A stretch of DNA of 24,600 nucleotides from a virus: positions 1-24,600 of the IMG/VR virus record IMGVR_UViG_3300025849_000212; one strand, given 5' to 3'. Positions 2,920 to 5,616 of this stretch are shown here, in pieces. The notes beneath the pieces are model-generated. The model was not told the origin of the DNA, ran no database searches, and saw only the letters and a list, made by a program, of their open reading frames with translations. The position numbers and the translations under genes are program-made. Every line of letters starts with the position of its first letter. Within the stretch, counting starts at the first letter, position 1.

Positions 2920-3498
2920 ATGTTAGTAATTGGTAATGGCGAAAGCCGCAAGGGCATTGACCTTAACAAGCACTTCGATACAAAGATTGGATGCAATGCC
3001 ATACATCGCGACTTTCACGTCGATCATTTAATATGTGTAGATCGAAGAATGGTACAACAAGCAATAGATGCTAATGTTAATGAAACATCAACAGTGTATA
3101 CGAGATCTGATTGGATAGACTCTTATAAAAATAAACAAAAAGTAAAGCAAGTTCCTAAACTACCATACGAAGGAACAGAAAGATGGGACGAGCCGTTTCA
3201 ATGGGGTAGTGGTCCTTATGCTGTATTACTAGCCGCTGGACTTTCAAAAGAAGTAAAATTATTAGGTTTTGATCTATTCAGCGAAACCAAGAATGTAAAT
3301 AACATTTATAAAGATACTGACGGATATAACGAAAGCACTAAAAATGCTGTTGATCCTAGATACTGGATACATCAAATTGGTATGGTATTTAAGTTATATA
3401 ATAAATGTAAGTTTATAATTTACCAAAAGAACAACTGGAACCTACCCAAAGCATGGAAATATACAAATGTTTCAGTTGACACGCTAGACAATTTATAG
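2920..3498 (+). CDS. GNGES-motif protein, possibly sugar-nucleotide or glycosyltransferase related
   Basis: A 192-residue soluble protein beginning MLVIGNGESRKGIDL, a Gly-rich beta-strand/loop start that recalls the nucleotide-binding opening of DUF115/sialyltransferase-like proteins. Further features are ICVDRRM (about residue 39), a central RWDEPFQWGSGPYAVLLA segment (about 88-105) and VKLLGFDLFSET (about 112-123), again a pattern seen in such proteins, where a conserved Gly-Ser-Gly precedes a helix. The core starts right at the ATG, which supports this start even though there is no Shine-Dalgarno. A glycosyltransferase-like gene lies two genes downstream, so a joint role in glycan modification is possible. 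The family assignment is tentative. Confidence 0.7.
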   Translation: MLVIGNGESRKGIDLNKHFDTKIGCNAIHRDFHVDHLICVDRRMVQQAIDANVNETSTVYTRSDWIDSYKNKQKVKQVPKLPYEGTERWDEPFQWGSGPYAVLLAAGLSKEVKLLGFDLFSETKNVNNIYKDTDGYNESTKNAVDPRYWIHQIGMVFKLYNKCKFIIYQKNNWNLPKAWKYTNVSVDTLDNL

Positions 3499-3504
3499 TA
3501 TAAT
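3476..3504 (+). promoter_or_regulatory. Consensus sigma70 promoter for the queD-like operon
   Basis: TTGACA at 3476-3481 and TATAAT at 3499-3504 are both perfect matches with a 17-base spacer. The -35 box lies inside the last codons of the preceding gene, and the -10 box starts right after its TAG stop at 3496-3498. Expected transcription start is about 3511, giving a leader of about 62 bases before the ATG at 3573. This would be an early, host-RNA-polymerase promoter. Confidence 0.85.
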
Positions 3505-3510
3505 AAGTAC

Positions 3511-3572
3511 AATACTAAGAGGACTTAGCGTCAACCCTCCTAATTCTGCCGCTATTATATAGGAGAATAAAT
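3511..3572 (+). promoter_or_regulatory. Structured 5' leader with alternative pairings over the Shine-Dalgarno
   Basis: The Shine-Dalgarno AGGAG (3561-3565) is perfectly complementary, within TAGGAG 3560-3565, to CTCCTA at 3537-3542. The same pyrimidine block can instead pair upstream, CCTC 3536-3539 with GAGG 3519-3522. These two pairings exclude each other, one hiding and one freeing the ribosome binding site. Other possible stems are CTAAG 3515-3519 with CTTAG 3524-3528 and TAGCG 3526-3530 with CGCTA 3550-3554. The order GAGG, AGC, ACCCTC loosely resembles the preQ1-I aptamer core, but the A-rich loop and spaced pseudoknot strand are missing. The switch is an inference from base pairing only. 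Confidence 0.45.
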
Positions 3573-4052
3573 ATGGCTTATTATAGCACAAAAACATACG
3601 GACACAACATAGGACTTTCAGCAGTCTTTAGACAACCTAATGCAGATCATTCACATTGTCATCTGCTACATGGATACAGTCTGCAATTTAAATTTACATT
3701 TGGATGTGATCACTTAGACAACAAAAACTGGGCTGTAGACTTTGGAGGATTGAAACAAGTTAAAGCCTGGCTTGAAGATAAATTTGATCACAAACTATGT
3801 GTAGACATGAACGATCCACACAAACAAGACTTTTATGATCTACAAGAAAAAGGATTGTGTGAAGTAAGAGAGTTTGGCGGTGTAGGTGCAGAGAAGTTTG
3901 CAGAACATGCATTTTACTTTGCTGACAAACTGATTAGAGAAGCAACTGACGATCGTTGTTGGGTTGAATCTGTCGAGTGTGCTGAGCATGGTGCAAACAG
4001 TGCAATCTATACACCCTTTACAGTACAGAAGATGTCTTTTGTAGATGGCTAA
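3573..4052 (+). CDS. queD: QueD / 6-pyruvoyl-tetrahydropterin synthase family protein
   Basis: A 159-residue protein of the T-fold PTPS/QueD family. QueD makes 6-carboxy-tetrahydropterin from dihydroneopterin triphosphate, an early step to preQ0 and queuosine or 7-deazaguanine DNA modification. Visible family features are Cys29 and His33 in HCHLLHGYS (the catalytic Cys and one zinc His of CxxLHGH), DFGGLK at 56-61, FDH at 71-73 (catalytic Asp/His) and SVECAEHG near the C-terminus. Two usual zinc ligands are replaced: Phe19 in LSAVFRQ where FxAAH is usual, and Tyr35 in HGY where HGH is usual. It may therefore use other His (26, 28, 30) or do a different reaction. AGGAG at 3561-3565 sets the start. 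The following glycosyltransferase-like gene overlaps by 8 bases. No other queuosine genes are in the window. Confidence 0.85.
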   Translation: MAYYSTKTYGHNIGLSAVFRQPNADHSHCHLLHGYSLQFKFTFGCDHLDNKNWAVDFGGLKQVKAWLEDKFDHKLCVDMNDPHKQDFYDLQEKGLCEVREFGGVGAEKFAEHAFYFADKLIREATDDRCWVESVECAEHGANSAIYTPFTVQKMSFVDG

Positions 4053-4863: not shown

Positions 4864-5591
4864 ATTTAAAAGTAATTGATGTACAACATTATACAGATAG
4901 TCTATTTAGGATAAGGACAGAACGACCTGCTACCTATAAATTTGTTGCAGGTGAATTTGTAATGATAGGACTTGACAACTGGTCAGAAAAATTACAAAGA
5001 AATAAACCAATAATGAGAGCGTATAGTTTTACAAGTGGGCCTTATGATGAATACTTAGAATTTTATAGTATCAAAGTACAAGACGGTCCGCTTACAAGCA
5101 AACTACAGCATATTAAAGTAGGTGATGATCTAATAGTAGGCGAAAAGCCCACAGGCACTCTTACACTTAATAATTTAGCACTAGGCGGTAACTTATGGCT
5201 GTTAGCTACAGGCACCGGCATAGCACCCTTTATATCGCTTCTAAGAGACCCTACAACGTATGATTACTTTGATCAGATACATGTGTACTGGAGTGTGCGT
5301 AAAGCAGAAGAACTACAAGCATGGGATAGCTTTTTACAAGAACAAGGTATTAAGTATACAGCGACAGTTACACAAGATCCTGAATGGACAGGACATAATA
5401 AACGCATAACAACATTTATTAGAGCAGGCGAAATTGTTCCTAATTTAGAACCTAGCGATCATAAAATTATGATATGTGGTAATTTAGACTTTAACAAAGA
5501 AGTAGCCACAATGTTTGATGGTTGGGGATTTAAAGAAGGTTCTAACAAAGAAGCAGGAACCTTTGTACAAGAGAAGGCATTTGTAGGTTGA
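4860..5591 (+). CDS. fpr: Ferredoxin/flavodoxin-NADP(+) reductase, probable CTG start
   Basis: A 243-residue FAD enzyme that moves electrons between NADPH and ferredoxin or flavodoxin. From the CTG it reads MNLKVIDVQHYTDSLFRIRT, a normal Fpr N-terminus. RAYSFTSG at 53-60 is the FAD-binding RxYS motif, and LATGTGIAPF at about 115-124 is the NADP-binding loop. MICGNLDF is the late Cys-Gly element, and the protein ends VQEKAFVG (236-243). The E-K-A-F-V-G tail is known from bacterial subclass II enzymes of alphaproteobacteria. The CTG overlaps the stop of the upstream gene as CTGA (4860-4863) and has AGGAG 8 bases ahead, so coupled initiation at a rare CTG is the best reading; ATG or GTG alternatives are absent nearby. 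A sigma70 promoter overlaps its stop. A likely job is supplying reducing power to infected-cell ferredoxin pathways. Confidence 0.88.
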   Translation: MNLKVIDVQHYTDSLFRIRTERPATYKFVAGEFVMIGLDNWSEKLQRNKPIMRAYSFTSGPYDEYLEFYSIKVQDGPLTSKLQHIKVGDDLIVGEKPTGTLTLNNLALGGNLWLLATGTGIAPFISLLRDPTTYDYFDQIHVYWSVRKAEELQAWDSFLQEQGIKYTATVTQDPEWTGHNKRITTFIRAGEIVPNLEPSDHKIMICGNLDFNKEVATMFDGWGFKEGSNKEAGTFVQEKAFVG

Positions 5592-5616
5592 CATTAATTA
5601 TAAAAGAGACTATAAT
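5588..5616 (+). promoter_or_regulatory. Consensus sigma70 promoter for uvsE
   Basis: TTGACA at 5588-5593 and TATAAT at 5611-5616 are both perfect, with a 17-base spacer. The TGA stop of the reductase gene (5589-5591) is part of the -35 box. The uvsE ATG begins only five bases after the -10 box, so transcription should begin at or within a base or two of 5622, leaving no leader. Confidence 0.85.

Follow-up and report, generated by a model that had tools for sequence, protein, structure and literature searches.

The leader of the QueD-like gene in the window, the 24,600-nucleotide stretch of viral DNA that was analysed as a whole, almost certainly contains an H-type pseudoknot built of two helices, P1 and P2 (Table 1). 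This pseudoknot represents a genuine, covarying RNA family that is specific to viral queD leaders and is apparently new. It is very probably a regulatory RNA, and the best explanation, to which we assign a probability of about one half, is that it is a cis-regulatory pseudoknot acting as a riboswitch for a guanine-like ligand and turning translation on. In its general form, the element has a P1 of 4-5 bp, a P2 of 6-8 bp in which a conserved U faces C, an L2 of 2 nt, and an A-rich L3.

Table 1 Features of the queD leader and gene, in window positions except where L244 or L245 is named
Feature	Position	Strand	Remarks
Sigma-70-type promoter TTGACA-N17-TATAAT	3476-3504	+	12/12 match; predicted start ~3511
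P1 5' arm GAGG	3519-3522	+	Partner 3536-3539
L1 ACU	3523-3525	+	Consensus H-C-U; C and U invariant in 94 aligned sequences
P2 5' arm UAGCG-U-CA	3526-3533	+	Covaries with 3547-3554; U3531 opposite C3549; pairs U3526-A3554, A3527-U3553, G3528-C3552, C3529-G3551, G3530-C3550, C3532-G3548, A3533-U3547
L2 A-C	3534-3535	+	C3535 immediately 5' of P1 3' arm; C in 94/94
P1 3' arm CCUC	3536-3539	+	Covaries with P1 5' arm
CUCCUA, possible anti-SD of an alternative state, window subclade	3537-3542	+	Complement of 3560-3565
L3 CUAAUUC, short form	3540-3546	+	UANANAYUC in most relatives
P2 3' arm UG-C-CGCUA	3547-3554	+	Covaries with 3526-3533
UAGGAG with Shine-Dalgarno (SD) AGGAG at 3561-3565	3560-3565	+	Read from the sequence
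QueD-like gene (PTPS family)	3573-4052	+	Pfam PF01242 E 7e-13; PHROG 2389 QueD-like E 2e-38
FolE/QueD/phosphoribosyltransferase/QueE cluster, no QueC or TGT	L244 2114-8025; L245 3608-9458

To examine the leader across relatives, the 80 closest IMG/VR relatives of the QueD-like protein were collected and their leaders aligned by start codon. A common block (G-G-A-C-U, a variable stretch, U-C-R-N-C-C-C, an A-containing loop, C-U-Y-G-C, and a second variable stretch) was present in 66 of the 80, leaving 14 queD genes without the element. The block-bearing leaders fall into 38 with a short L3, which form the subgroup of the window, and 28 with a longer, A-rich L3. In a long-loop set of 69 sequences, found by pattern and by protein, 88.8% of cells were paired as compared to 72.3% after shuffling, and 164 double changes were counted as compared to 51, with none of 500 shuffles reaching either measure; sliding the partner column by one lowered pairing to 31%. 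Because a DNA pattern had supplied part of this set, a less biased test was made with new protein anchors. The resulting 90 distinct sequences gave 91.4% pairing (75.1% shuffled) and 181 double changes (44 shuffled), and again 0/500 shuffles matched them on any measure. Double changes occurred in 11 of 13 pairs, including four of the five P1 pairs, P1 was 99% paired, and the R-Y pair at the base of P2 was A-U in 84 sequences and G-C in six, with no exceptions. The shuffles leave relatedness in place, as do the slid controls, which paired at just 28-50% overall and at 28-33% when slid by one. The covariance model used for searching, R1, was fitted to P2 with P1 entered as plain sequence, so that the P2 counts are biased towards the model and the P1 counts are free of that bias. 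P1 takes the forms GWGG/CCWC, GCGG/CCGC, AGCGG/CCGCU, UGCGG/CCGCA, ACCGG/CCGGU, and AGACG/CGUCU. The unpaired residues are equally constrained among the 94 aligned sequences: C and U of L1, the U opposite C in P2, and the C before the P1 3' arm are invariant, as are UC and three alternating A residues of L3, one A having a single exception, while the base preceding the invariant L2 C may be U, C, or A.

The window carries an atypical member, with a short L3 and an R1 score of only 25 bits (E 1e-4, followed in the window by a match at E 0.4). Taken from this leader alone the case is weak, because the fold of 3511-3580 gave a nested structure no more stable than shuffles (z = +0.76) and no Rfam 15 family matched the window at gathering thresholds. 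The null result of the nested fold is explained by the actual structure being a pseudoknot. The sequence-only reading had drawn attention to two pairings, CTCCTA with TAGGAG and CCTC with GAGG. Both are exact, and they exclude each other, since 3537-3539 are common to both. Shuffling the upstream leader also yields an exact 6-nt complement of TAGGAG in 2% of cases, and this match is by itself weak evidence. Among the 38 short-loop relatives, the CUCCUA/UAGGAG helix was retained in 24, counting G-U pairs, and broken in 14, and it lies beyond the reach of covariation support because its SD side hardly varies. It was therefore rejected as a family feature and is limited to the subclade of the window. 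Of the translational switch originally proposed for this leader, a conserved, regulatory-looking RNA before queD has been borne out, but the geometry of the switch is different and the anti-SD helix is not family-wide. Two structural statements did not survive: a proper pseudoknot had been described as absent, and P2 exists, and an A-rich L3 had been described as absent, and most relatives possess one. The same reading had named a lack of compensatory changes in the stems, or transcription starting downstream of 3522, as fatal to it; such changes are abundant in P1, with the SD side of the anti-SD helix near-invariant, and the predicted start lies upstream of that position.

The sigma-70 promoter lies a few bases upstream of the element. 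A promoter-like site matching at least 10/12 positions was found within the 75 nt upstream in 65% of 125 relatives as compared to 3.5% of shuffles, and in the relatives that have one, 4-15 nt separate the end of the -10 from the element. Because the promoter ends so close, the RNA is expected to begin at the 5' side of the element, which by prediction places the pseudoknot at the extreme 5' end of the queD transcript. A second 12/12 sigma-70 promoter is present elsewhere in the window (5588-5616), with 5 nt between the end of its -10 and the ATG (5622) of a UvdE-like gene, and it would leave that mRNA nearly leaderless. The protein encoded behind the element matched PF01242 above its cut-off and TIGR03367 with E 3e-9, at 37 bits as compared to the 89 needed. 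It carries CxxxHGY in place of the HGH of PDB QueD chains, and one likely zinc-ligand histidine appears to be replaced by tyrosine. QueD-like relatives linked to the element include both HGY and HGH types.

The position before queD is near-exclusive. When R1 was applied to four other QueD subfamilies (E 0.01), the element was found at 65/80, 28/80, 10/80 (the L109 set), and 74/80 loci. Across the 320 protein-anchored loci, all 177 matches lay ahead of queD on its coding (+) strand, and the PTPS proteins linked to the element range down to ∼28% identity with that of the window. A GUGG-form pattern was found in at least 120 viral stretches, and among the matches listed, 115 of 120 directly precede a QueD open reading frame (ORF) and most of the others precede a truncated one. 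In 49 whole records, in which R1 mostly misses short-loop members, each long-loop phage had one strong copy, even in contigs of 200-518 kb, and the long-loop records that were checked contain a single PTPS gene directly downstream of it. A scan of one bacterial genome per GTDB species with a pattern blind to GCGG forms returned 20 matches, about as many as we expected by chance; only three had the structure, and all three precede a phage-type queD. The element was not found in named phages by blastn, nor, at E 0.1, in the leaders of 12 cultured-phage queD genes, most of which directly follow another ORF. Rfam at a low threshold gave nothing credible, and freshwater-2 was rejected as an identity at 15 bits, below its 49.9 cut-off. 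A literature search of partial coverage found no description of the leader RNA, and an earlier report may exist elsewhere.

A conserved, covarying, structured 5' leader linked to a metabolic gene, as seen here, is one mark of a riboswitch, the other being direct ligand binding that changes expression, and a ligand-binding riboswitch of either sign is the likely identity of the element. The invariant C, the A-rich L3, and the 7-deazaguanine genes that many of the element-bearing genomes also carry point to a guanine-like ligand, and we put the chance that it is a 7-deazaguanine or another guanine-like compound at about even. By analogy, the invariant L2 C would read the Watson-Crick face of the ligand and the L3 adenines would line P1; the likeliest ligand would be a compound of the 7-deazaguanine pathway (preQ0, CDG, or a derived nucleotide) or a pterin. 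Control would be at translation. A strand after P2, whose last nucleotides also belong to the P2 3' arm, would pair with the SD or the start codon, and pseudoknot formation would release the ribosome site, giving an ON switch; the SD-pairing part would fall to the P1 3' arm in the window, with CUCCUA/UAGGAG opposed to P1. The segment after P2 pairs with its own SD or start at -5.00 kcal/mol as compared to -4.37 kcal/mol when permuted (z -4.8; 0/10,000), and the post-P2 hairpin overlaps the P2 3' arm in 95 of 101 hairpin-bearing leaders. Clear hairpins include CCUAUG/CAUAGG, ACUCC/GGAGU, and CAUUAUUA/UAAUAAUG. The ON direction is slightly better than an even bet and only moderately favoured, because the platform pairing test on a second, independent set, which holds only about two platform types, failed (z -1.4), and because SD accessibility in the free leader was not below that of shuffled leaders (0.43 vs 0.34). 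Sequestration of the SD in the free leader is accordingly unsupported as a general rule. An ON switch on a biosynthetic gene would also be unusual, unless the ligand is a precursor. Two recurrent leader tails were seen in the L081-L200 range, AUCAAACUUACUC...GGAGGCAAGAG and AUCAAACUUGCUACC...GGAGACUAGAG, both showing more conservation from P2 to the start codon than the hairpin accounts for.

A riboswitch of the opposite sign, in which the pseudoknot, once ligand is bound, lies against the ribosome site and turns queD off as in the Tte and Eco preQ1-I switches, is the strongest of the alternatives and is rather unlikely. It follows the usual feedback logic of biosynthesis, and preQ1-I translational switches do repress (PMC10639078, PMC11625349). 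The last base of P2 in the window is at -19 relative to the AUG, beside the 30S footprint, but the spacing between P2 and the SD is widely variable and reaches ∼30 nt, which argues against occlusion as a general mechanism, and the P2 3' arm competes with the pairing at the SD or start.

Less probable again is a protein-bound translational operator, in which the pseudoknot is clamped, and queD thereby repressed, by the QueD-like enzyme or by an RNA-binding protein of phage or host. Exclusive linkage to queD would fit autoregulation, and pseudoknots serve as operators in phage leaders, as in that of T4 gene 32. A diverged self-binding protein would, however, be expected to shift its site, and this one element is common to PTPS loci down to the lowest protein identity noted above, of HGH and HGY types alike; the conserved unpaired core also resembles an aptamer pocket. 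That core, with its invariant residues in L1, L2, and L3, and the confinement to a single gene even in the largest genomes likewise make it improbable that the pseudoknot is a constitutive mRNA structure without a ligand, providing 5' stability or ribosome standby, although it sits where the transcript is predicted to begin. Chance pairing, with which the unremarkable nested fold and the 2% frequency of the anti-SD match would agree, has already been refuted for P1 and P2 by covariation and distribution.

The guanine-ligand riboswitch also suits the other genes of the phages that carry the element. FolE was found in 18 of 49 records, including all seven larger than 200 kb. Among 37 records, 16 had QueE-like proteins and 17 had a xanthine/guanine-type (purine) phosphoribosyltransferase, mostly in the same records. 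Clear clusters in two records run FolE, HIT-like, the RNA with QueD, glycosyltransferase-like, radical SAM, phosphoribosyltransferase, and QueE, in which the HIT-like and glycosyltransferase-like labels are our reading of the sequences. QueC and TGT had no match over the cut-off in 22 phage records, and the FolE, QueE, and phosphoribosyltransferase partners were not seen in the window record, a 24.6 kb fragment. The cluster composition, with neither QueC nor TGT, suggests a nucleotide route to 7-deazaguanine DNA, and we infer that the element-bearing phages would produce a 7-deazaguanine nucleotide. Several element contigs (the records of L157, L138, L135, L083, L110, and others) carry an unusual load of 8-22 radical-SAM genes each. 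The phosphoribosyltransferase match crosses one in-frame stop in G002, G022, and G043 (of L005, L083, and L146), perhaps because the match overruns the true end or start of the gene or because the gene is broken. The Kyanoviridae phage BUCT-ZZ01 has a phosphoribosyltransferase, QueD, and FolE neighbourhood without the RNA.

The element is probably a switch, through which the phage would sense a guanine-like metabolite and tune its own 7-deazaguanine pathway. A riboswitch class so far restricted to viruses, in which a preQ1-I-like pseudoknot would take another ligand (CDG, preQ0, or a 7-deazaguanine nucleotide) and meter modified guanine for phage DNA, is a tentative proposal that falls somewhat short of even odds. 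Few riboswitch candidates seemingly confined to viruses are known, and the present one combines small size and a clear consensus with hundreds of examples. It points to a pathway of FolE, QueD, QueE, and phosphoribosyltransferase in which QueC and TGT were not found, and the identity of the ligand would test both which 7-deazaguanine these phages make and the nucleotide route to modified DNA. Some phages that lack DpdA have been described as carrying genes of the preQ0 pathway, among them dADG-rich Campylobacter phages (Hutinet et al., PMC6884629), for which a route through a modified dGTP was proposed (PMC6884629). The element-bearing phages are alike in having preQ0-pathway genes without TGT/DpdA; what is known of the Campylobacter phages is the pathway, with no mention of a riboswitch (PMC6884629), whereas here a phosphoribosyltransferase is linked as well.

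The closest known RNAs are the preQ1 riboswitches. The sequence-only reading had looked to RF00522 and RF01054, and neither family matched: RF00522 gave no match at its gathering threshold, nor up to E 10 on short stretches, and RF01054 and RF02680 gave none. preQ1-II (RF01054) and preQ1-III (RF02680) are likewise pseudoknots; they sense preQ1 and control translation, but are larger, of the HLout type with extra helices, and stand before queT-type transporters (PMC11625349). The queD element is also set apart from membership in preQ1-I, failing RF00522 and differing in L1, P2, and L2. Its L1 is H-C-U in 94/94 sequences, without the UU of preQ1-I types I and III; its P2 of 6-8 bp with U opposite C compares with ∼4 bp in preQ1-I (PMC10639078); and its L2 of 2 nt, which brings P2 to within 2 nt of the P1 3' arm, is shorter than that of preQ1-I. 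The SD lies outside P2, the element is viral, and the gene controlled is queD, which is not mentioned in a preQ1 review (PMC11625349). The loose likeness to preQ1-I and the 7-deazaguanine setting that were first noted for this leader are nonetheless supported. Both RNAs are small, two-helix H-type pseudoknots, the queD element having been tested by covariation, and they share GG/CC at the loop side of P1, an A-rich L3, a translational setting, and a gene of the 7-deazaguanine pathway. In preQ1-I, a C (as UC or AC) immediately precedes the P1 3' strand (PMC11625349) and marks the site of the specificity base, and the queD element has its invariant C at that same position. By this analogy, the queD element may work like preQ1-I.
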